NCBI GenBank assembly: GCA_017541265.1
Contig: JAFXZK010000125.1
Span: forward strand, 1 to 37,212
Source of the DNA: Bacteroidaceae bacterium
GTDB lineage: Bacteria > Bacteroidota > Bacteroidia > Bacteroidales > Bacteroidaceae
DNA length: 37,212 nt
Direction of reading: 5' to 3'
The notes under the pieces: model-generated
Told to the model about the DNA's origin: nothing
Seen by the model: only the letters and a program-made list of their open reading frames with translations
Database searches by the model: none
Position numbers and translations under genes: made by a program
In this document: positions 23,811-33,763 of the stretch, piece by piece
How positions within the stretch are numbered: position 1 is the stretch's first letter
Layout of the letters: every line of letters starts with the position of its first letter

Positions 23811-25762
23811 CTGCATTCCTGCTATTCGCAGGGACGCTGTGGGCGCAGAACCCCATCATTCACGACCAGTTTACAGCCGACCCTACCGCGCGCGTTTTTA
23901 ATAATAAGGTGTATCTCTTCCCTTCGCACGACATTCCTGCACTCGCCTCGCAACGCCAAGACTGGTTCTGCATGGAGGACTATCACGTCTTTTCCTCTGA
24001 GAACCTGACCGACTGGACAGACCACGGCGTCATCCTTTCGCAGGAGAACGTGCCGTGGGGCAAGCCTGATGGCTACAGTATGTGGGCGCCCGACTGCGTC
24101 TTTAAGAACGGCAAATACTACTTCTACTACCCCAACGCGCCGAAGGAAGGACGAGGCTTTGCCATTGGTGTTGCCATTGCCAACCGACCTGAAGGGCCAT
24201 ATACGCCAGAGAAGGAGTCGATAAAGGGCGTCGGAGGCATCGATCCTTGCGTCCTTATCGATGACGACGGCACGGCCTATCTTTATTGGAGCGGTATGGG
24301 CATTCGGGGTGGACAGTTGAAAGAGAACATGACCGAACTGAGGGACAGCAGCCGCATCATGGAAGGTTTGCCCGATGGCTTCAAGGAAGGGCCTTTCGCC
24401 TTCAAGCGTGATGGTCGCTACTATATTACCTTCCCGTGGGTTCGCAAAGAGAAAGGCACAGAGACGCTGGCATACGCCATGAGTGACTCGCCGCTCGGAC
24501 CGTGGCAATTCAAAGGCATCTTCATGGCCGAACACGACAACAAATGTTGGACAAACCACCACAGCTTCTTGGAATACAAAGGCCAGTGGTACCTCTTCTA
24601 TCATCGCAACCACTATTCGCCCGGCATGGACAAGCGACGCTCTGCCTGTATCGAAAAAGTGTCGTTCAATGCCGACGGCACCATTCCGGAAGTGAAGCAG
24701 ACGCTGCGAGGCGTGGGCGTGACAAAGGCAACGGAAAGGATTGAAGTCGACAGGTACAGCGACATTAGCGACGGCGTGACCATAGACTTCAACGACAGCA
24801 CACGGGCATTCAACGGCTGGCACGCCAATTTGCCACGGAAAGGCAGCTACATCAGGTATGACGACGTGGACTTCTCGGACCTCTCCGACGGCTATCTTGT
24901 CTGCAAGGTCAAGGCAAATGCCAACACCAGCTTCACTATTCGCGAAGGCACAGCAAAGGGCAAGGTATTGGCAAAACAGGCGATTACCGTTGAAGGCGAG
25001 ACAGGGCCATTCCGACGCGACCAGAGAGGTCAATGGCTAACGCTCACCGCTCCAATTCAAAATGAAATAGTAAATAGTAAATCGTCAAATAGTAAATGTC
25101 TTGACCTGTTCATCGTCTGCGAGGACAAGGAAATGAGCATCGACTGGGTGCAGTTCAAGAACCGCACGACATATATGAAGCCAGCTTCAGGAACAAGCCA
25201 GCCCGATGAAGAGGGTTTCATCCGGAGATGGCTGCTGCTCGAACCCATCAAGCAGGACATCCCGTCGAACACCGTCTTCACAAACACATGGCTCCGCGAA
25301 GCATTTGGCAAAGAATATTTCAGCGGACAGATGACCTCTCTTCCCAAGAGCGGGCAGAAGGAGAAAGTCGGCAATCAGAAGCTAACTTGGCGACTCTTGG
25401 ACAGCGAGACCTACAACGTCAGGCTTTTCCGCTTTGCCGAGAAATGGGGACAGCAGACATACGGTTCGTTGTTCTGGGCAGTTACGGTCATCGACTGTCC
25501 CGAAGAAATCCGCAATGTACGCCTTGCGGCAGGCAGCAACGGCGCCTCAATGTGGTGGCTGAACAGCGAAGAAGTCCTGCTTTTGGAAGGCGACCGACGT
25601 ATGGTTGAAGACGACGGAATGTCGAAAAGGCTGACGTTGAGGAAAGGTCGTAACATCCTGAGAGGTGCGGTCATCAACGGCCCCGGTCTTGCCGACATGT
25701 GTGTCCGCTTCCTCGACGAGAAAGGCAAAGCAATTACTAACTATTCCATCAATGACAAATAA
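23780..25762 (+). CDS. Secreted GH43 glycosidase with CBM6-like domain
   Basis: This is a secreted enzyme of 660 residues from ATG 23780, which gives the signal peptide MISKTYIKYISAFLLFAGTLWA. An ATG seven codons upstream is less likely. The five-bladed GH43 propeller has D34 (ADPTARVFNNKVYLF) as base, D155 (GGIDPCVLIDDDG) as pKa modulator and E203 (GFKEGPFAF) as acid. Residues about 335-465 look like a CBM6-type xylan-binding sandwich (TIDFNDSTRAFNGWHANL ... SIDWVQFK). The last 190 residues form another beta domain I cannot name. Likely an arabinofuranosidase or xylosidase on arabinan or arabinoxylan. A short AAATAGTAAAT repeat at 25066-25099 adds NEIVNSKSSNSK inside the CBM. The next GH43 gene begins one base after its stop. 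Confidence 0.88.
   Translation: MISKTYIKYISAFLLFAGTLWAQNPIIHDQFTADPTARVFNNKVYLFPSHDIPALASQRQDWFCMEDYHVFSSENLTDWTDHGVILSQENVPWGKPDGYSMWAPDCVFKNGKYYFYYPNAPKEGRGFAIGVAIANRPEGPYTPEKESIKGVGGIDPCVLIDDDGTAYLYWSGMGIRGGQLKENMTELRDSSRIMEGLPDGFKEGPFAFKRDGRYYITFPWVRKEKGTETLAYAMSDSPLGPWQFKGIFMAEHDNKCWTNHHSFLEYKGQWYLFYHRNHYSPGMDKRRSACIEKVSFNADGTIPEVKQTLRGVGVTKATERIEVDRYSDISDGVTIDFNDSTRAFNGWHANLPRKGSYIRYDDVDFSDLSDGYLVCKVKANANTSFTIREGTAKGKVLAKQAITVEGETGPFRRDQRGQWLTLTAPIQNEIVNSKSSNSKCLDLFIVCEDKEMSIDWVQFKNRTTYMKPASGTSQPDEEGFIRRWLLLEPIKQDIPSNTVFTNTWLREAFGKEYFSGQMTSLPKSGQKEKVGNQKLTWRLLDSETYNVRLFRFAEKWGQQTYGSLFWAVTVIDCPEEIRNVRLAAGSNGASMWWLNSEEVLLLEGDRRMVEDDGMSKRLTLRKGRNILRGAVINGPGLADMCVRFLDEKGKAITNYSINDK
25066..25099. 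repeat. AAATAGTAAAT short-word repeat in frame in the GH43 gene
   Basis: The words aaatagtaaatagtaaat and caaatagtaaatg encode EIVNSKSSNSK between two strands of the CBM6-like domain without breaking the frame. Confidence 0.55.
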
Positions 25763-25763
25763 C

Positions 25764-27218
25764 ATGAAGAAGATATTATTGCTGTCAATTCTCAATTTTC
25801 AATTGTCAATCTGCCTCGCGCAAGTCGGCGCTCCCTACATTCACGACCCTTCGACCATTGCAGAATGCGACGGCAAATACTATACCTTCGGAACAGGAGG
25901 GGGCGGACTCATCAGCGAAGACGGCTGGTCGTGGCATTCAGGAGCCGAACGTCCCGGTGGCGGCGCCGCACCTGACGTCTTGAAGATTGGCGACCGCTAC
26001 CTCGTCATCTACGGTGCAACAGGCGGAGGTCTTGGAGGTGGTCACAACGGACGCATCCTGACGATGTGGAACAAGACACTCGATCCTCGTTCGTCTGACT
26101 TCCATTACTCTACGCCTATCGAAGTGGCTTCGAGCGACGGCATGGAGGACTGCGATGCCATCGACCCTTGCCTGCTGCTCGACCCTACCACTGGCCGCCT
26201 TTGGTGTTCCTACGGCACATACTTCGGAAGCATCCGTCTCATCGAGCTTGACCCAAAGACAGGCGAACGTGTGGAGGGCAACAAGGAGATGGACATTGCT
26301 ATAGACTGCGAGGCAACGAACCTCATTTGGCGCGATGGCTGGTACTATCTGCTTGGCACCCACGGCACTTGCTGCGACGGCGTAAACTCAACGTACAACA
26401 TTGTCGTCGGGCGTTCGCGAAAGGTGGAAGGCCCTTACATGGATAACGTGGGGCGCGACATGCTGCACGGAGGAGGACGAATGGTGATTGCCGCTGGCGA
26501 CCGGCTTTGTGGTCCGGGTCACTTTGGCCGTACCATCATCGACGAGGGCGTGGAGGTCATGTCGTGTCACTTTGAAGCCGACCTTGAGCGAAGCGGAAGG
26601 AGTGTGCTTGGCATCAGGCCGCTTTTGTGGAGAAACGGTTGGCCAGAAGCTGGCAAGCAATTCAAGGAAGGCAGCTATGCCATTGTGTCGGAACGACGTG
26701 GCTACAGCCTTGAGCTGGCAGTCGACTTCATCCGCATGAAGCAAGAACGGCAGGCTTTTTGGCGCATCAATCCCGACGAACCAGTGAAGCCTTTGCCAAA
26801 CCAGACACTTGCCGAGGTGATTGGCACTTGGCCAAAAGGCAACATTCCCGTACGTCTGAGCGACTACATGTTCCGTCCGCATCAACACTGGACGGTTATC
26901 CCCGTTGCAGAGGGCGGCGGCTTTCTTGGCGGTCAATACTGCAAGATTGTGATTGAAGGCACAGACCGTGCCCTTGCTGCCACAGAAGACTTGGAACTGA
27001 CCGCCACAGAGCAGTTCAATGGAGCCGACGAACAGCTTTGGCGCATCGAGCAGCTTACCGACGGCACCTATCGCATCATGCCCAAGCGCATACCAGGTCA
27101 GGAGGGACTGAACACCACCTATTGCCTTTATTCATCGGGCGACAGCACCCCCACCCTTGCCTGCTATGACTTCGGGAGCGACAACGCAAAGTGGAGGTTC
27201 GTCCAAGTAGTCAACTAA
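25764..27218 (+). CDS. Secreted GH43 family arabinanase-like protein
   Basis: This 484-residue secreted enzyme has its ATG at 25764, one base after the previous stop, so the genes are translationally linked. The signal peptide is MKKILLLSILNFQLSICLA. The GH43 residues are D28 (YIHDPSTI), D134 (DAIDPCLLL) and E183 (DCEATNLIWRDGWYY). The propeller ends near residue 340, and the C-terminal 140 residues (YMFRPHQHWTVIPVAEGGG ... NAKWRFVQV) resemble a ricin-type trefoil, probably glycan binding. Endo-1,5-alpha-arabinanase or arabinofuranosidase activity is likely but not certain. The signal peptide core is encoded by a repeat of CAATT words (tcaattctcaattttcaatt). Confidence 0.87.
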   Translation: MKKILLLSILNFQLSICLAQVGAPYIHDPSTIAECDGKYYTFGTGGGGLISEDGWSWHSGAERPGGGAAPDVLKIGDRYLVIYGATGGGLGGGHNGRILTMWNKTLDPRSSDFHYSTPIEVASSDGMEDCDAIDPCLLLDPTTGRLWCSYGTYFGSIRLIELDPKTGERVEGNKEMDIAIDCEATNLIWRDGWYYLLGTHGTCCDGVNSTYNIVVGRSRKVEGPYMDNVGRDMLHGGGRMVIAAGDRLCGPGHFGRTIIDEGVEVMSCHFEADLERSGRSVLGIRPLLWRNGWPEAGKQFKEGSYAIVSERRGYSLELAVDFIRMKQERQAFWRINPDEPVKPLPNQTLAEVIGTWPKGNIPVRLSDYMFRPHQHWTVIPVAEGGGFLGGQYCKIVIEGTDRALAATEDLELTATEQFNGADEQLWRIEQLTDGTYRIMPKRIPGQEGLNTTYCLYSSGDSTPTLACYDFGSDNAKWRFVQVVN

Positions 27219-27405
27219 AATCGTTAGTCGTCCCTCAAAAAGCCACTTTTTATTATATTGAAGGGTTAGGATTGTGGGGCGAGCAGGTGTCCCAAAGATG
27301 CCTCTGATGCCCTCGCTCAACAAATCCAAAACCATTTTGCTCTCTTGCGGAAGAGCGCATGTTTTATACAACCTTTTCAAGGGGCAAATATATACCAACA
27401 CAGGC

Positions 27406-27770
27406 CTTTGTTCTGGCGGATTTATAATCCGCCAGCATTGAACATGAGCATTTGTAATGCGAAAAACATTTTACAAAACACGCTTTTTCGTGCTTTGCGA
27501 ATCGACACTATTCGCCCTCCACACCTTCCGTACCCAAACACGCCATTCTCGGAGACCAAGTCGTCGCAAATATCTTGACAAAACTGACCGTCTGCCGTAA
27601 TACTTTTGAAACGAATCGGTTCATTATGCACAACAAACCGACTCATTTTCTTGCATATTTGAGCCGATTTGCCTACCTTTGTAAGTTGATAGCTTGACTT
27701 CGAACAGAATTATGTTATTGAGACACAAACCATGATAAGCAAAAACCATATCAAGTCCATCAAGCTATTG
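27406..27770 (+). repeat. Direct repeat, copy 2, downstream of the GH43 cassette
   Basis: It matches 23201-23300 plus 23548-23810, with the intervening 250 bases missing. It carries the same promoter (TACCTTTG at 27674-27681) and the same start context (ATGATAAGCAAAA at 27732), but no GH43 gene follows. Recombination between the copies would remove both GH43 genes. Confidence 0.85.
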
Positions 27771-27874
27771 ACGGCAGCGTTTTGATGCTCTTCGCGCATA
27801 TCCTCGTCTATGCAGGCAGCATTTTTGGCGTGAAGATTTACATCAAAGACCTAATTAAGCGAGCAAACAAATAA
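27732..27874 (+). pseudogene. Broken small secreted-protein ORF behind the duplicated promoter
   Basis: From ATG 27732 the frame reads MISKNHIKSIKLLTAAF and stops at 27783. An overlapping ATG (TGATG) then opens MLFAHILVYAGSIFG...KRANK up to 27874. One extra T at the junction would join them into a 48-residue peptide with a signal-like core (LLTAAFLMLFAHILVYAG), as in the GH43 leader MISKTYIKYISAFLLFAG. This looks like a decayed duplicate leader. It could instead be a small coupled ORF of 29 residues at 27785-27874. Confidence 0.5.
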
Positions 27875-27889
27875 AAAAGGATTCCTTTT

Positions 27890-27920
27890 TTTGCGGTTTG
27901 CCCGCTTTTTTGTATCTTTG
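27890..27920 (+). promoter_or_regulatory. Promoter of the ORF6N / restriction cassette
   Basis: TTTG at 27890-27893 and TATCTTTG at 27913-27920 are 19 bases apart, a near-perfect Bacteroidetes promoter. The first start codon is at 27941. Confidence 0.7.
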
Positions 27921-27940
27921 CGGAAGAAAAGGAAAAGTGT

Positions 27941-28897
27941 ATGGCAGACAGCAAGAGCAAAAAGAAAAATACAGAACTTGTCACCAATTGTGACAACCTC
28001 CCTCAGACAGGAAACGTCTTTAGTCAGCATGACATAGAAAGACTTATCCTTACTATTAGAGGCGAGCAAGTAATCTTAGACCGCGACCTTGCATTCCTTT
28101 ATCAAGTAGAGGTAAAACAGATGAACAGGCAGGTGAAACGCAATATTGAGCGTTTCCCAGAGGATTTTATGTTTCAACTCACAAAGGAAGAATATAATAG
28201 TTTGAAGTGCCAAATTGGCACTTCAAACAAAAGAGGCGGTGATCGCCGTGCACTGCCTTATGCTTTCACACAACAGGGAATAGGGATGCTTAGCGGCCTT
28301 CTCAGGAGTCAAGTCGCCATAGACACCAATATTCGGATTATGCGTGCATTTGTCAATATGCGTCGTTTCTTGCTTTCAAATGCTCAGATATTCCACCGCC
28401 TTGACAATGTTGAACAGAAGCAGTTGGAGAATAAGGTGTGGATGGAGCAGACAGACAATAAAATCAACACCATACTTGCAAAGATGGAGGACAATTCTCC
28501 CAAGCTCCTTCCTGAACAGATTTTCGGTACAGGTTGTGTTTGGGATGCATGGTCATATGTCTCAGACCTGATTAGGAGTGCCAAACAGAAGATTATACTT
28601 ATTGACAACTTTGTTGATGACCGTGTCCTGTCACTCCTTGACAAACGAGCCGATGGCATCGAAGCCACTATTCATACCCGCTATTATGAGTCGTTCCTGA
28701 CCGACTTAAAGAAGCACAATGACCAATATCGCGAAATCAAGTTCGTACAGTTTCCACACCGCAACCACGACCGCTTCCTCATAATCGACAATGACGTGTA
28801 TTTCCTTGGAGCTAGTGTGAAGGATATGGGCGTTGGTTTGTGTGCAATTACGAAATTGCAAGCATCCCCAGAAACGATATTACAATTTCTGAAATGA
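27941..28897 (+). CDS. ORF6N domain protein with PLD-like C-terminal domain
   Basis: This is a 318-residue cytoplasmic protein. The ORF6N (KilA-N-like) DNA-binding domain spans residues about 30-125 (RGEQVILDRDLAFLYQVEVKQMNRQVKRNIERFP, ending RIMRAFVNMR). A helical linker follows. The C-terminal half (WDAWSYVSDLIRSAKQKIILIDNF) resembles phospholipase-D-like nuclease domains. Its motif is HDRFLIID with R in place of the usual K, and GASVKD, so it may bind rather than cut DNA. This form is common in Bacteroidetes. It is first in a tight three-gene unit (8-base gap to the next gene), which suggests a regulatory or DNA-sensing part in the restriction cassette. That role is inferred. Confidence 0.85.
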   Translation: MADSKSKKKNTELVTNCDNLPQTGNVFSQHDIERLILTIRGEQVILDRDLAFLYQVEVKQMNRQVKRNIERFPEDFMFQLTKEEYNSLKCQIGTSNKRGGDRRALPYAFTQQGIGMLSGLLRSQVAIDTNIRIMRAFVNMRRFLLSNAQIFHRLDNVEQKQLENKVWMEQTDNKINTILAKMEDNSPKLLPEQIFGTGCVWDAWSYVSDLIRSAKQKIILIDNFVDDRVLSLLDKRADGIEATIHTRYYESFLTDLKKHNDQYREIKFVQFPHRNHDRFLIIDNDVYFLGASVKDMGVGLCAITKLQASPETILQFLK

Positions 28898-28905
28898 TAT
28901 AAAAC

Positions 28906-29835
28906 ATGCCGACTCGTCCATTAACATCGTCCGAAGAACTGGTTATAAGGTTTTTAGAGAAAGCCAAGTCCTATCAGTCTGATTTTGAATTAATAAAAAT
29001 ATTAAGGTCGAGGACATATCGCATTGTCAGGGCTAATGTTCTTATTCGTGCCTCATCCGAAGGCAATAGAAGATATTTCTTTGGCCTAAACTATTTATGC
29101 GCCGAAGAAATGGCGAATGTTGACAATCCATACATCGCATTCATTTGTGGTGATGTTGACAGAACTGTTATTATTCCTGCTAAAGTATTCTTCAGATATT
29201 TACCTCAAATTAGTCATGACAGGAATGGGGAATACAAAATAAACATAGATAAAGATCTTAACATCGTCCTTCAAGGAAGAGGTAATCGTTTAGATTGCTC
29301 TTCATACATCAACAATTGGGAACAACTGATAAATCCGACGCCCCAACCAATCTCTGACTTTTCATCTGTTGAACAAAGTTTACACTCCATTATTCAAGGG
29401 CGCCTTTTGGAGATTGGCAACGCTAGAGGGTTTGAAACATTCTGCCCAGACAAATCTAAACTCTTCAACGAAAGGCAACTGAAAGAGATAGCGACAATTG
29501 ATAAATGCCCAGAATTGCAATTCTCTCAATATGATTTGCTCAGACAAATAGATGTTTTGTGGTTTAAGAAAAAAGGGAACCATTACATTCCACAATATGC
29601 TTTTGAGGTAGAATTATCTACTGGTGTCTGGTCTGGAGTCGGTAGAATGTCAACCTTACTAGATTATGAAAACGTTCCACTTTATATTATATCAAATGAC
29701 CACAGACTTTATCAAAAAGTCATTTCCACAAATGATAATAGTTCCAGGTATCATTTCATTGATAATAATGATTTAGGTGATTTATATGCCGCAGAGAAAT
29801 CTTTGAAAGAACTGAGATATAAAATAGGATTGTAG
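28906..29835 (+). CDS. Unrecognised nuclease-like protein of the restriction cassette
   Basis: This 309-residue protein has no family I can name. The N-terminal half (about 1-140; SSEELVIRFLEKAKSYQSDFELIKILRS) may be a DNA-recognition part. The C-terminal half looks like a PD-(D/E)xK core: D216 in LRQIDVLWF, then E234-V-E236 in YAFEVELSTGVWSGVGRMSTLL, with E in place of the usual K. It could be an inactive or altered endonuclease, or a control or specificity partner. It lies 8 bases after the ORF6N gene and 4 bases before the TdeIII-like gene, so the three are almost certainly co-translated. Base use is clearly A+T-richer than the flanking genes, pointing to transfer from elsewhere. Confidence 0.55.
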   Translation: MPTRPLTSSEELVIRFLEKAKSYQSDFELIKILRSRTYRIVRANVLIRASSEGNRRYFFGLNYLCAEEMANVDNPYIAFICGDVDRTVIIPAKVFFRYLPQISHDRNGEYKINIDKDLNIVLQGRGNRLDCSSYINNWEQLINPTPQPISDFSSVEQSLHSIIQGRLLEIGNARGFETFCPDKSKLFNERQLKEIATIDKCPELQFSQYDLLRQIDVLWFKKKGNHYIPQYAFEVELSTGVWSGVGRMSTLLDYENVPLYIISNDHRLYQKVISTNDNSSRYHFIDNNDLGDLYAAEKSLKELRYKIGL

Positions 29836-29839
29836 AAAC

Positions 29840-30832
29840 ATGGCTATATCAACAGAGAAGAAAGAAAGAATAGCTCGCGATGTTATTCAAGAAATATATA
29901 GGCATTATCAAATTAGTGCAAACGTCATGGTGAATAATCCATTTGCGAGAGCATTTGCATCTATCAATGAAAGGGCTATTAATCAACAAGACAATGCAAG
30001 ACAAAACTGTGCATATAACCTTATGCATGGCCTTAACACTTCATTGGGACAGTCTTTCTTCGAAGGCGTTGCTCATATACTTTGCGATGGTGAGAAGAGG
30101 GATTTCAAGTCAAATGAGATTTACATCAATCAAATGTCGGCAATCTCCGACATTATGATAGACTTGAAAAATGGTACGGAAACTCCATCTGTAAATCGTG
30201 AAGATGAAATTATCGCCAATCAAGCGACAGGAGATAAGCAGACGGCTTCTAACTTCACAGCAGATTGCTTTTATGAAACAGAAAACGAAGTGGTAGCTCT
30301 CGAATTGAAATCTGTACGTCCTAATTCTGGTGAAATGAGAGGTGAAAAGCAGAAAGTTCTGATAGGTAAGGCCGTTTTGCGTGAATTGTATCCTAACAAG
30401 AATGTGAGATACATCTTCGGTTTTCCATTCGACCCAACTTCGGATAGTGATGTTGGCTATGACAAGCAACGTTTCCTTCACTACCTTGTAGAGGCTGAGA
30501 AATTCATAGCACACGAAGATTTCCTCATTGCCGATGAGCTGTGGTCGTTCTTGGCTTCGTCGAATAATGCAATGCAAGAAATCCTGGAGATAATAAACCG
30601 TATTGCCACTCCAAGGTTTATGGATAAATTTGATGCCCTGCAGGATAACAGGACACCAAGAGAAGAGAAACGAAGGATATTGGAAGAATGGTATCTTTGT
30701 TCTGAAGTGCGTATCTTAGACAATGTACGCCCGAATGCTTCAAACTTGCGAATCTATAATCAGTCGATTTTCAAGAATGATGGTTCATATAATACTAACA
30801 GGTTAACGCTTCTAAATCTTCAACCGCAATAA
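29840..30832 (+). CDS. TdeIII-family type II restriction endonuclease
   Basis: This 330-residue protein resembles the TdeIII restriction family. Shared features are the LNTSLGQSFFEGVAHIL block, the segment ISDIMIDLKNGTETPS, and a PD-(D/E)xK core with D142 (FTADCFYE) and E155-L-K157 (VALELKSVRP). FGFPFDPTSDSDVGYDKQRFLHYL follows. The family name-giver, TdeIII, cuts at GGNCC; whether this protein shares that site is unknown. No DNA methyltransferase is encoded in the window, although GGNCC occurs in it (for example GGACC near 931). Either the partner enzyme is elsewhere, or the cassette works differently. A terminator hairpin follows at 30851-30874. Base use is A+T-rich like its upstream neighbour. 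Confidence 0.8.
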   Translation: MAISTEKKERIARDVIQEIYRHYQISANVMVNNPFARAFASINERAINQQDNARQNCAYNLMHGLNTSLGQSFFEGVAHILCDGEKRDFKSNEIYINQMSAISDIMIDLKNGTETPSVNREDEIIANQATGDKQTASNFTADCFYETENEVVALELKSVRPNSGEMRGEKQKVLIGKAVLRELYPNKNVRYIFGFPFDPTSDSDVGYDKQRFLHYLVEAEKFIAHEDFLIADELWSFLASSNNAMQEILEIINRIATPRFMDKFDALQDNRTPREEKRRILEEWYLCSEVRILDNVRPNASNLRIYNQSIFKNDGSYNTNRLTLLNLQPQ

Positions 30833-30850
30833 CCGAGTTTGATACCAATA

Positions 30851-30874
30851 AGGGCGACAGGAAACTGCCGCCTT
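30851..30874 (+). terminator. Terminator of the restriction cassette
   Basis: AGGGCGACAG and CTGCCGCCTT pair around a GAAA tetraloop with one A-C mismatch and one G-T pair, and TTATTTA follows. It lies 19 bases after the endonuclease stop. Confidence 0.65.
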
Positions 30875-30879
30875 TATTT

Positions 30880-31038
30880 ATGCAACAAAAGCAACAAAAG
30901 CAACATTGCGATTTGAGAGAGAGCAATATCAAACTTGTTTGGATATTGCCGAACGTTAGCAATGTCAACGAAGTTAACAAGCAATTTCAAGAGGAAATCA
31001 TCGGAAAACATTCCTTTTCAAGGAAAAACTTGTGTTAA
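30880..31038 (+). CDS. Possible small ORF, 52 residues
   Basis: ATG at 30880 opens a frame MQQKQQKQHCDLRESNIKLV... ending in SRKNLC. The first codons are a GCAACAAAA tandem repeat. There is no clear ribosome site, it starts right after the terminator, and I recognise no family. It may be chance. Otherwise 30875-31060 shows nothing nameable. Confidence 0.2.
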   Translation: MQQKQQKQHCDLRESNIKLVWILPNVSNVNEVNKQFQEEIIGKHSFSRKNLC

Positions 31039-31063
31039 GTTATGTTTTCTCCTCTTTTTTTTA

Positions 31064-31071
31064 TAATTTTG
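31064..31071 (+). promoter_or_regulatory. -7 element of the nqr operon
   Basis: TAATTTTG fits TAnnTTTG and lies 37 bases before the nqrA start. No convincing -33 element is seen. Confidence 0.55.
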
Positions 31072-31108
31072 CACCCGCGAAAACAAACATTTTTTATTAA
31101 TCCCAGAT

Positions 31109-32437
31109 ATGGCAAAAGTAATTAAGTTACGCAAAGGCCTCGACGTCAATCTCAAGGGCAAAGCCACGAAGGAGACTGCCAGCGTGAAGTGTCCGGGCGA
31201 GTACGCACTCGTGCCAGACGACTTCTATGGCGTGAAACCTAAGGTGGTGGTCAAGGAGGGAGATGCCGTGAAGGCTGGGGATGCCTTGTTTGTTGACAAG
31301 CTGCATCCCGAAGTGAAGTTCGTTAGCCCTGTCAGCGGAACAGTCAGCATGGTGGAGCGCGGCGACCGTCGCAAACTGCTGAGCATCCGTGTGAAGGCTG
31401 ACGAGAAGCAGGAAGCACGCCAGTTCGACAGCCAGGGTGACCTGAAGGCGCTCATGTTGGAGAGCGGTCTGTTCGCTTTCCTGCGCCAACGTCCCTACGA
31501 TGTGGTGGCAAATCCTGAGGACGCTCCGAAGGCTATCTTTGTGAGCGCGTTCAACAGCATGCCGCTGAGTCAGGACTTCGAGTACGTCCTCCAAGGTCAG
31601 GAGGCTGAGTTCCAGGCAGGTCTTTCCGCTTTGGCTAAGATTGCAAAGGTTTATCTCGGCGTGAGCGCAAAGCAGACCGCTAAGGCTCTGACCGAGGCTA
31701 AGGATTGCGAGGTGAACATCTTCGATGGTCCCGCTCCAGCAGGTAATGTGGGTGTTCAAATCAATCACGTCAGCCCCATCAACAAGGGTGAGGTGGTTTG
31801 GACACTCGGAGCCGAGGAGGTTATCTTCCTGGGTCGCCTCTTGAAGACTGGCAAGGTGGACTTCACTCGCACCATCGCGCTTGCCGGTAGCGAAGTGAAG
31901 GCGCCCAAGTACTACAAGGTGAAGGTCGGCCAGAAGTTGACAACGCTCCTCGACGGCACTATCAATGCTGAGGGTGCTCGCATCATCAGCGGCAACGTGA
32001 TGACTGGTCTCAAGACCTCTGCCGAAGGTTTCCTCGGTGCTCATGCTACCGAAGTGAACGTCATTCCCGAAGGCGACCACGCTGACGAGATGTTGGGCTG
32101 GATCATGCCACGCTTCAACACCTTCAGCACCCATCGCAGCTACTTCAGCTGGCTCTTGGGCAAGAAGAAGGAGTACGTCATCGATGCACGCGTCAAAGGC
32201 GGCGAACGTCACATGATCATGAGCGGAGAGTACGACAAAGTCTTCCCGATGGACATCTATGCAGGCTATCTCGTGAAGGCCATCATCGCTGGAGACATCG
32301 ACCGTCAGGAAGCTCTGGGCATCTACGAGGTTGCCCCAGAAGACTTCGCCATCGCTGAGTTCGTGGACTCTTCGAAGCTCGAGTTGCAGCGTATCGTACG
32401 TGAAGGCTTGGACATCCTCAGAAAGGAAAATGCTTAA
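31109..32437 (+). CDS. nqrA: Na+-translocating NADH:quinone reductase subunit A
   Basis: NqrA is the peripheral, cofactor-free subunit of the sodium-pumping NADH dehydrogenase, associated with the quinone-reducing side. The 442-residue protein starts MAKVIKLRKGLDVNLKGKA, the usual N-terminus. Other family blocks are SPVSGTVSMVERGDRRKLLSI (a biotinyl/lipoyl-like fold), GPAPAGNVGVQINHVSPINKGE, and FNTFSTHRSYFSWLL. The length is normal. It heads nqrABCDEF, and a 109-base inverted-repeat element separates it from nqrB. Confidence 0.95.
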   Translation: MAKVIKLRKGLDVNLKGKATKETASVKCPGEYALVPDDFYGVKPKVVVKEGDAVKAGDALFVDKLHPEVKFVSPVSGTVSMVERGDRRKLLSIRVKADEKQEARQFDSQGDLKALMLESGLFAFLRQRPYDVVANPEDAPKAIFVSAFNSMPLSQDFEYVLQGQEAEFQAGLSALAKIAKVYLGVSAKQTAKALTEAKDCEVNIFDGPAPAGNVGVQINHVSPINKGEVVWTLGAEEVIFLGRLLKTGKVDFTRTIALAGSEVKAPKYYKVKVGQKLTTLLDGTINAEGARIISGNVMTGLKTSAEGFLGAHATEVNVIPEGDHADEMLGWIMPRFNTFSTHRSYFSWLLGKKKEYVIDARVKGGERHMIMSGEYDKVFPMDIYAGYLVKAIIAGDIDRQEALGIYEVAPEDFAIAEFVDSSKLELQRIVREGLDILRKENA

Positions 32438-32452
32438 TAAATGAAGAATGAT

Positions 32453-32561
32453 GAATGAAGAACGAAGAATTTGCTACCGCACTGCCAAGGCAGCATCGGA
32501 GCATTCTCTCAGTTTCAATCTGTTTTTCTTCGTGCGGTAGCAAATTCTTCATTCTTCATTC
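32453..32561. repeat. MITE-like inverted repeat between nqrA and nqrB
   Basis: Two 30-base arms at 32453-32482 and 32532-32561 match at 29 of 30 positions (inner sequence AATTTGCTACCGCAC / GTGCGGTAGCAAATT). The 49-base spacer holds a small TGCCaaGGCA hairpin. The arms end in the repeated word gaatgaagaa. It fills most of the 150-base gap and has no coding capacity. Confidence 0.85.
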
Positions 32562-32587
32562 TTAACTCTTAATTAATAATGTATATT

Positions 32588-33763
32588 ATGAATCCAATAA
32601 AGAAACTATTCGATAACATACATCCCTACGTTGAGGAAGGTGGCAAGTTCCACGCTTTCCGTTCGTTGGTGGACGGTTTCGAGACGTTTGCTTTCGTTCC
32701 GAACACAACCAGCCGCGTAGGTAGCGTGAATATCCACGATGCTATCGACAGCAAGCGCATCATGAGCCTCGTCGTGATTGCCCTGGTTCCTGCCTTGCTC
32801 TTCGGTATGTATAACGTGGGTTATCAGAACGCTTTGGCAACAGGCCACTTGGCCGATGCTACGTTCTGGGGAATGTTCTGGTACGGCTTCTTGGCCGTCC
32901 TGCCTAAGATTATTGTCAGCTACGTTGTCGGTCTCGGTATCGAGTTCGTGGTTGCACAGTGGAAGAATGAAGAGATTCAGGAGGGCTTCCTCGTATCGGG
33001 TATCTTGATTCCCATGATTGTGCCCGTCACTTGTCCGCTCTGGATGCTTGCCATCGCCGTTGCTTTCAGCGTTATCCTTGCTAAGGAAATCTTCGGCGGC
33101 ACAGGCATGAACATCTTCAACCCTGCTCTTATCACCCGTGCTTTCCTGTTCTTCAGCTATCCCTCAGCAATGACAGGCGACGCAACCGTTTGGGTGGCTC
33201 AGGACACCATCTTCGGTCTTGGCTACAAGGCTACTGATGCCTACACCGCAGCCACACCTCTTGGCGAGGCAGCTCAGGCAGGCTTCCAAGGCTTTACACC
33301 CGACCAGATTCAGAATGCCATCACAGGTCTTATTCCTGGTTGCATTGGTGAGACCAGCGTGATTGCCATCGCTCTTGGCGGTTTGCTGCTGCTTTGGACA
33401 GGCGTTGCCAGCTGGAAGATTATGCTGAGCGTCTTCGTTGGCGGTGCAGCAACAGGTTATCTGATGCAAGCTCTCGACCTGACACAGATTCAGTGGTACG
33501 AGCACCTCGTTCTTGGCGGCTTTGCTTTCGGTGCTGTCTTCATGGCAACCGACCCCGTTACAAGCTGTCGTACAGAATGCGGCAAGTACGTCTATGGCCT
33601 GCTCATCGGCTTCATTGCAGTCTTGGTGCGCGTCCTCAACCCAGGTTATCCCGAGGGTATGATGCTTGCCATCCTGCTGATGAATCTCTTTGCAAGTCTC
33701 ATCGACTATTGCTTCGTACAGAGCAACATTAACATGCGTGCTAAGCGCGTATCTAAAAAGTAA
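32588..33763 (+). CDS. nqrB: Na+-translocating NADH:quinone reductase subunit B
   Basis: NqrB is a membrane subunit that carries a covalent FMN and takes part in the sodium pathway and quinone site. From ATG 32588 (MNPIKKLFDNIHPYVEEGGKFHAF) it has 391 residues; an ATG three codons earlier is also possible. It has about ten hydrophobic segments. The FMN site is the threonine of YTAATPL (residue 223), matching the S/T-x-A-T motif. PALITRAFLFFSYPSAMTGDATVWV and FATDP-like MATDPVTSC are typical family blocks. Order and spacing fit a standard nqr operon. Confidence 0.94.
   Translation: MNPIKKLFDNIHPYVEEGGKFHAFRSLVDGFETFAFVPNTTSRVGSVNIHDAIDSKRIMSLVVIALVPALLFGMYNVGYQNALATGHLADATFWGMFWYGFLAVLPKIIVSYVVGLGIEFVVAQWKNEEIQEGFLVSGILIPMIVPVTCPLWMLAIAVAFSVILAKEIFGGTGMNIFNPALITRAFLFFSYPSAMTGDATVWVAQDTIFGLGYKATDAYTAATPLGEAAQAGFQGFTPDQIQNAITGLIPGCIGETSVIAIALGGLLLLWTGVASWKIMLSVFVGGAATGYLMQALDLTQIQWYEHLVLGGFAFGAVFMATDPVTSCRTECGKYVYGLLIGFIAVLVRVLNPGYPEGMMLAILLMNLFASLIDYCFVQSNINMRAKRVSKK

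Follow-up and report, generated by a model that had tools for sequence, protein, structure and literature searches.

A putative nuclease gene repeatedly found in place of the methylase at TdeIII-type restriction-modification loci

Introduction

How does a gene for a full-length type II restriction endonuclease come to lie in an operon that holds no methyltransferase? This question is raised by a three-gene cassette in a stretch of 37,212 nucleotides (the window), which is the whole of contig C49 (JAFXZK010000125.1) in the Bacteroidaceae bacterium assembly GCA_017541265.1 (3.24 Mb, 143 contigs, 87.37% complete). The cassette encodes an ORF6N protein (P1), a protein for which the initial annotation proposed a PD-(D/E)xK-like core (P2) and a TdeIII-family restriction endonuclease (P3). 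Restriction-modification (R-M) systems are thought to be hard to lose, since the residual endonuclease kills cells after loss of the methylase. Enzymes of the TdeIII/MjaII type are specific for GGNCC; the TdeIII gene is here called R, and its usual partner, a helix-turn-helix (HTH) N6/N4 methylase of 525-567 amino acids, is called M. The cassette had been read as a possible defence unit in which the first two proteins control or replace the methylase, and the survey described below supports a part of that proposal which concerns P2.

Results

P2 often lies among the remains of TdeIII operons

A scan of GTDB contigs with exact short peptides, which favours close relatives, retrieved 12 relatives of P2 with 53-66% identity, matched over most or all of the length, from Bacteroidota, Acidobacteria, Syntrophaceae, Thermodesulfovibrionia, Planctomycetota, Melioribacter, an unclassified bacterium and an archaeon. 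After removal of duplicates (L091, equal to L011; G995, taken as L010 from its same position and identity; G1040/L237, equal to L008), 20 distinct P2 loci were compared, namely the window, L001-L012, L092-L097 and L269, most of them from draft or metagenome-assembled genomes. P2 occurs in 6 of the 395 genomes of a phylum sample, the window's own included, where 19 further matching genomes hold relatives of its C-terminal half, and in 7 of 341 genomes of one class and 2 of 198 of one order. In the window's family, matches occur in 36 of 399 genomes; apart from the window's own, these genomes (35) match only through solo relatives of the C-terminal half. No relative was found in phages, nor in viral contigs, where 92 stretches matched the search pattern. 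Matches in 79 plasmid records never extend over 80% of P2, and among the 20 of these that were listed only residues 136-292 aligned.

The flanks of P2 were searched by tblastn with intact M and R proteins. No full-length M was found at any of the 20 loci, and at 14 of them P2 has a TdeIII gene, or what remains of one, as its neighbour. At nine, a broken M flanks P2 on one side and a broken TdeIII gene on the other (Table 1), seven of these being recognised by tblastn and L002 and L005 partly by eye. The general pattern consists of N-terminal pieces of M to the left of P2 and N-terminally cut pieces of R to the right. The longest M remnants, those of L007 and L269, end at residues 512 and 502 of 525 and thus stop 13 and 23 residues short of the C-terminus; all 19 intact M proteins examined have this terminal stretch. 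L002 also holds, by eye, the remnant of a second methylase, of the TSPPY motif type. An R tail without remains of M is found in L096 and L097, a full-length R without any trace of M in the window, L008 and L093, and neither M nor R remains in L010, which starts near a contig end, L011, L012, L092, L094 and L095. A survey of P2 homologues for conserved linkage to TdeIII genes had been recommended; the linkage recurs, without full-length M, and P2 is followed by full-length TdeIII in the window, L008 and L093 and by N-terminally truncated TdeIII in L002 and L006.

Table 1. Remains of the methylase and of the endonuclease on either side of P2 (residue ranges)
Locus	M	R	Basis
L001	1-158	233-256	tblastn
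L003	2-146	200-260	tblastn
L004	1-144	133-259	tblastn
L006	6-164	23-260	tblastn
L007	5-512	24-134	tblastn
L009	5-106	138-258	tblastn
L269	1-502	51-258	tblastn
L005	short M start	R tail	R tail by eye
L002	M motif	R from residue 27 to contig end	M motif by eye

TdeIII loci sampled blind to P2 look otherwise. TdeIII was found in 15 of 247 phylum-sample genomes; of the 13 loci other than the window and G514, 12 carry intact M and R without P2, and the last, G407, is a remnant that likewise has no P2, so that intact M is present in 12/13 loci without P2 versus 0/2 with it. In intact TdeIII systems M adjoins R or lies one gene away (L133, L138, L143).

In 18 of the 20 loci P2 is preceded by a small gene of type A (L001, 9777-9977) or type B (L004, 9799-10008), which represent two families of proteins of about 70 amino acids that also occur beside some R-M genes. 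The exceptions are L269, in which B lies downstream of P2, and the window, which has neither. In L009 the P2 frame (1805-2716) appears by eye to be shifted near its end, possibly a decaying or misassembled copy.

Displacement probably occurred repeatedly

When canonical TdeIII proteins are placed on a tree, the L002 remnant pairs with the intact L139 (100/98), those of L004 and L006 join the intact L135 (99/98), L004 being closer to L135 than L006 is (91/89), and that of L269 groups with L132, L134 and L136 (92/98); the position of L009 is not resolved. These five of the 11 P2-linked remnants of the canonical clade were tested, L001, L003, L005, L096 and L097 being too short and L007 a long-branch row. 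Forcing the five into one clade costs 155 log-likelihood units (approximately unbiased test, p 2e-5), and at least five changes are needed for them on the TdeIII tree. As the testable remnants do not form one clade, displacement happened repeatedly. In clade iv, the window, L008 and L093 likewise appear not to form one clade (p 0.0016, from six rows with a long window branch). The P2 proteins of L002 and L006 share 74-76% identity and their TdeIII remnants 56%, the remnants being 75% identical to the intact L139 and 79% identical to the intact L135, respectively. The tree of the M remnants is mostly unresolved.

P2 is under purifying selection, with a ratio of nonsynonymous to synonymous substitution rates (dN/dS) of 0.065-0.087 in five of six pairs, the sixth being saturated. 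The M remnants of L001 and L006 give a dN/dS of 0.053, which fits recent breakage and also fits kept function. The linkage of P2 to TdeIII loci, the breakage of M, the recurrence of these events and the purifying selection on P2 are thus established, and we consider it highly probable that P2 has repeatedly displaced TdeIII-type R-M operons.

The queC-queF site holds R-M systems or P2 in different genomes

Of 79 genomes of family f17, 70 have a queC match, and the following stretch was examined in 63 (L179-L236, L091, L092, L095, L134 and L136). It is empty in 41, contains M and R in nine, is cut after the start of M in one, and holds A or B plus P2 in three; four loci carry another methylase, of the TSPPY motif type (three of these after A or B), two have other content and three are uninformative (L210, L211, L223). 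The partner endonuclease of the TSPPY methylase in L179 is of the EcoO109I type (PF14511, 295 bits); L185 and L217 resemble L179 by eye, and L187 was assigned by pattern only. Since EcoO109I cuts RGGNCCY and TdeIII cuts GGNCC, both R-M types at this site would aim at GGNCC. As TdeIII R-M, P2, the other R-M type and other content are all found among the 63 loci, queC-queF is a small R-M hot spot. The P2 copies found here do not descend vertically from one ancestor at the site: in the P2 tree L011 groups with L097, from another family and another place, and not with L092 (95/91). One of the loci with other content, L199, holds ParB-like and helicase-like genes by eye.

P2 combines an N-terminal domain with a predicted nuclease core

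No Pfam family matches P2 up to E 1. Its first 150 or so residues form an N-terminal domain without a family match, followed by a PD-(D/E)xK-like C-terminus (E169, D216, E234xE236). The C-terminal half has homologues (hhalign 99.3%, E 3e-20) in solo proteins of about 250 amino acids that share its D and ExE signature. E169, E234 and E236, as candidate catalytic residues, are present in 20/20 loci and D216 in 19/20. The AlphaFold model of P2 has a pLDDT of 72.7, with the N-terminal domain modelled with fair to good confidence. Foldseek placed the Holliday-junction resolvase Hjc first, at a weak score (probability 0.95, E 0.02), then 1rzn (RecU), with MUS81-EME1 and MspJI further down and unrelated folds interspersed; no solved fold matched the model at E 0.001 or better. 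The proposed PD-(D/E)xK-like core agrees with the signature shared with the solo proteins, and P2 is read here as a putative methylase-independent PD-(D/E)xK nuclease. Neither an NTPase nor a winged helix was recognised in it. Detectable homology of P2 to TdeIII was considered and rejected (hhalign probability 0.3%).

The solo relatives have, by eye, a winged-helix-like N-terminal region. No methylase was evident in the short flanks of 11 that were examined, and none is annotated near two plasmid relatives, whose gene tables are incomplete. In the window's own genome (contig C99; L054, 5736-7251), a 270-aa solo relative adjoins a C-terminal N6/N4 methylase remnant with stops, a second pair of intact nuclease and broken methylase in that genome.

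P1 is probably a passenger

The N-terminus of P1 is an ORF6N domain (Pfam PF10543, E 5e-32), as had been noted from the sequence; its C-terminus is PLD-like on the basis of an HDRFLIID motif seen by eye, so that this half of the earlier assignment is less secure. P1 also matches PDLC04869 of PADLOC PDC-S05 with 360 bits (E 2e-108); the PDC families are predicted phage-defence candidates. P1 shows no linkage to P2 outside the window: the two are neighbours in 1/20 P2 loci, and the nearest other case is a 42% match to the ORF6N half in L007 (884-1309), at a distance of some 6 kb from P2. In the window's family, 29 of 151 genomes hold P1 relatives (E 1e-30), many covering one half only. Of 12 longer matches examined, two (L271, L280) have, by eye, an hsdM-like gene on one side and an hsdS-like gene on the other; of four plasmid copies, one is part of a type I R-M operon, and other relatives adjoin varied other genes. 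No P2 was found near the longer family matches or the plasmid copies. A conserved three-gene unit is consequently rejected; membership of P1 in the unit is not supported, and P1 is probably a passenger gene of a type often found in R-M operons.

No partner methylase was found in the window's genome

The absence of a methyltransferase from the cassette was confirmed. Twelve intact M proteins gave no tblastn match within 5 kb of P2, the six-frame reading of 27220-27945 contained no methylase remnant upstream of the cassette, and PF00145 and PF01555 searches of the whole genome gave no match on C49. A wider search for a TdeIII-partner methylase, which had been recommended, found no HTH-M type in the 87%-complete assembly. 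Other methylase matches lie on C11, C58, C119, C124, C118, C99, C100 and C65. On C118, C124 and C11 (L057, L056, L060) we noted a type III Mod/Res pair, an EcoRI-like pair and a 5-methylcytosine methylase with a possible endonuclease; these systems were named by eye, and only their methylases matched families. M-protein searches of 13 and 10 genomes (three of the latter taken as repeats) found full-length HTH-M in 0/20 P2 genomes, mostly drafts, although eight have a listed completeness of 93-99%. That P2 and M exclude each other across genomes was rejected as evidence by itself, both being rare.

P3 retains the TdeIII core

The TdeIII identity of P3 is confirmed by Pfam RE_TdeIII (PF09520, E 1.2e-39, 136.9 bits). 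P3 keeps 18/18 of the near-invariant TdeIII residues, and the other two full-length enzymes at P2 loci (L008, L093) keep 17/18 each. The occurrence of GGNCC in flanking genes, from which a need for protection had been argued, is real, and the site is depleted: its observed/expected ratio is 0.52 in 120 kb from the window and other stretches of the same genome, where no other of the 16 five-base palindromes whose middle base is free is depleted as strongly. The same is seen in 92 kb of other genomes of the family (0.60) and in f17 (0.64). Because other genomes of the family show much the same, the depletion says nothing about P3, and avoidance as a sign of an active enzyme was rejected.

Discussion

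This study revealed that the methylase-less operon of the window belongs to a recurrent arrangement of which P2 is the core. The reading that we favour, tentatively and with about as much doubt as confidence, is that the cassette derives from a TdeIII-type operon, was acquired by horizontal transfer and lacks the methylase, and that P2 is in type IV-like conflict with M. P2 genes, mostly led by A or B, would land repeatedly at the junction of M and R in TdeIII operons, M losing its 3' part and R its 5' part. P2 would read the DNA mark left by GGNCC methylases, could not share a cell with active M, and would persist only where M has been destroyed; it would then guard against DNA and R-M systems bearing that mark. 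The nuclease activity, the modification dependence and the defence role are the parts of this reading that we infer. The type IV-like reading is preferred because P2 outlives M, because M is never full-length beside P2 and because the kin of P2 are solo proteins. Two features expected of such an enzyme, candidate catalytic residues and a position without full-length M, are consistent with it at the level of sequence. The mechanism as such, a modification-dependent displacer of GGNCC-type R-M systems, is proposed with somewhat more reserve than the reading as a whole. The earlier idea that the first two proteins control or replace the methylase hence survives for P2, whose position in the methylase's place fits the genetics, and fails for P1. 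A doubtful extension is that P2 stands for a new class of one-gene nucleases directed against R-M, which would read GGNCC methylation, probably N4-methylcytosine (m4C), and destroy and replace GGNCC R-M operons from within; in the window, P2 would have been joined to a methylase-less TdeIII, so that P2 cuts marked and the restrained TdeIII unmarked DNA.

Several observations weigh against the type IV-like reading. A type IV-like P2 alone does not account for cell survival with the full-length, methylase-less TdeIII of L008, L093 and the window; there R may be held in check by P2 or P1, or may be inactive or changed in specificity. P2 is concentrated at TdeIII loci, and conflict alone would predict it mostly in genomes that never held a TdeIII R-M system. 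D216 is replaced by N in L008, and no modified-DNA reader domain was recognised in P2, whose N-terminal 150 or so residues lack a Pfam or confident fold match. The M proteins of L007 and L269 retain both catalytic motifs and might be active. The absence of M from a genome is not certain, since most loci come from draft or metagenome-assembled genomes. Finally, the P2-blind comparison gives p 0.029 with the window and about 0.14 without it (2/14, by hand).

P2 might instead be an ordinary anti-phage nuclease, the R-M wreckage around it reflecting turnover at a defence hot spot and the loss of the methylase normal decay. The varied contents of queC-queF, with TdeIII R-M at nine loci plus one cut, P2 at three, another R-M type at four and other content at two of the 63, speak for this, and there are known solitary restriction endonucleases whose methylases are corrupted (Ershova et al. 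2012, PMC3488263). A swap by flanking recombination would not leave remains of M and R on both sides of P2, as is seen in 9/20 loci, and we regard this explanation as unlikely.

That P2 is an antidote or silencer of TdeIII, blocking the enzyme or its sites so that loss of M is harmless and R survives or erodes, is rather improbable. It would explain the full-length TdeIII without M in three P2 loci, with the family-invariant residues kept, and the concentration of P2 at TdeIII loci; the end branches of R in the window, L008 and L093 are also long (0.77-1.54, versus 0.33-0.38 in three M-linked kin), as if constraint had changed. However, P2 has a conserved nuclease-like residue set and no detectable TdeIII homology, and it remains under purifying selection even where R is gone or fragmentary (L092, L011, L097).

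A homing-endonuclease-like selfish gene that cuts the M-R junction and copies itself there is more doubtful still. In L006, TdeIII homology follows the P2 stop immediately and begins at codon 23; in L002 it begins at about the same codon (first matched codon 27, 12 bases past the stop), and in L007 at codon 24, 272 bases past the stop. Synonymous divergence of P2 is below that of the flanking M remnant in 13/15 pairs from six loci and below that of the TdeIII remnant in 2/3 pairs, but synonymous sites are near saturation, the pairs overlap and are not independent, and amino-acid identity does not bear the trend out, the M remnant exceeding P2 in 4/15 pairs. The boundaries vary, on the left from about M residue 14 to 512 and on the right from R residue 23 to 233. 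A fixed insertion site in an otherwise intact target gene was thus not found, though R codon 23-24 recurs in three loci.

It is very improbable that the cassette is simply a decayed R-M system with its methylase in the 13% that this assembly (143 contigs) lacks. M lies next to R or one gene away in 12/13 TdeIII loci without P2, and no full-length M was found in any of the 20 P2 genomes, including the eight listed at 93-99%.

With regard to known systems, the cassette resembles TdeIII/MjaII-type II R-M systems in that P3 is a TdeIII-family enzyme with a conserved core and P2 loci hold remains of the same operon; it differs in having P2 in the place of a linked methylase. Solitary restriction endonucleases, in the catalogue cited above (PMC3488263), are full-length type II enzymes with the methylase nearby corrupted or missing. 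The difference here is that one particular nuclease-like gene marks the loss, repeatedly and in independent lineages. Type IV nucleases beside frame-shifted methylases have been described (Helbrecht et al. 2024, PMC11037411); these winged-helix fusion endonucleases share with P2 the proposed independence from a methylase, the position of some beside frame-shifted methylases and the logic of conflict, and differ from it in their winged helix, none being recognised in P2. With McrBC, transformation by a gene for an m4C methylase fell by four orders of magnitude (Fukuda et al. 2008, PMC2614495), a likeness in that a methyl-dependent nuclease is incompatible with a methylase gene. In contrast to McrBC, P2 consists of one small protein with no NTPase match, lies inside an R-M locus and has a proposed modification dependence. 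Neither P2 nor such a displacement was described in the titles and abstract openings among the matches listed from the openly licensed literature.

A gene found repeatedly in the methylase's place, in several phyla, constitutes a natural experiment on how the addiction to an R-M system is broken, and P2 is a candidate for a new modification-dependent nuclease. The arrangement also bears on the persistence of full-length type II endonuclease genes without a methylase, a question raised by the solitary-enzyme catalogue (PMC3488263).

Organisation of the cassette in the window

The three open reading frames predicted from the sequence were all confirmed; they run head to tail on the same strand, with gaps of 8 bases (28898-28905) and 4 bases (29836-29839), and Table 2 lists them with the flanking signals. 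The cassette is, as had been observed, richer in A+T than its surroundings, with a GC content of 0.36-0.43 across 28001-30500 (1-kb windows), compared with 0.52-0.56 across 24001-27500 to its left and 0.53-0.54 across 31001-32500 to its right. Of the strong promoter and terminator that had been proposed, a promoter-like site and a 3' hairpin are present, the latter without a clear T run; the promoter-like site resembles the Bacteroidetes consensus (TTTG / TATCTTTG). Directly downstream of the cassette, at 31109-33763, lies what is by eye presumably an nqr-like operon (Na+-translocating NADH:quinone reductase).

Table 2. Features of the cassette and its flanks in the window
Feature	Position	Strand	Basis or remark
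Promoter-like site, Bacteroidetes type	27890..27920	+	TTTG at 27890, 19 bases, TATCTTTG at 27913
P1, ORF6N protein	27941..28897	+	Pfam PF10543, PADLOC PDC-S05; probably passenger
P2, putative displacing nuclease	28906..29835	+	20 loci, homology to solo proteins, residues, predicted fold
P3, TdeIII-family restriction endonuclease, clade iv, intact open reading frame	29840..30832	+	Pfam PF09520, residues, trees
Hairpin 3' of P3, terminator-like	30847..30878	+	RNA fold -16.7 kcal/mol

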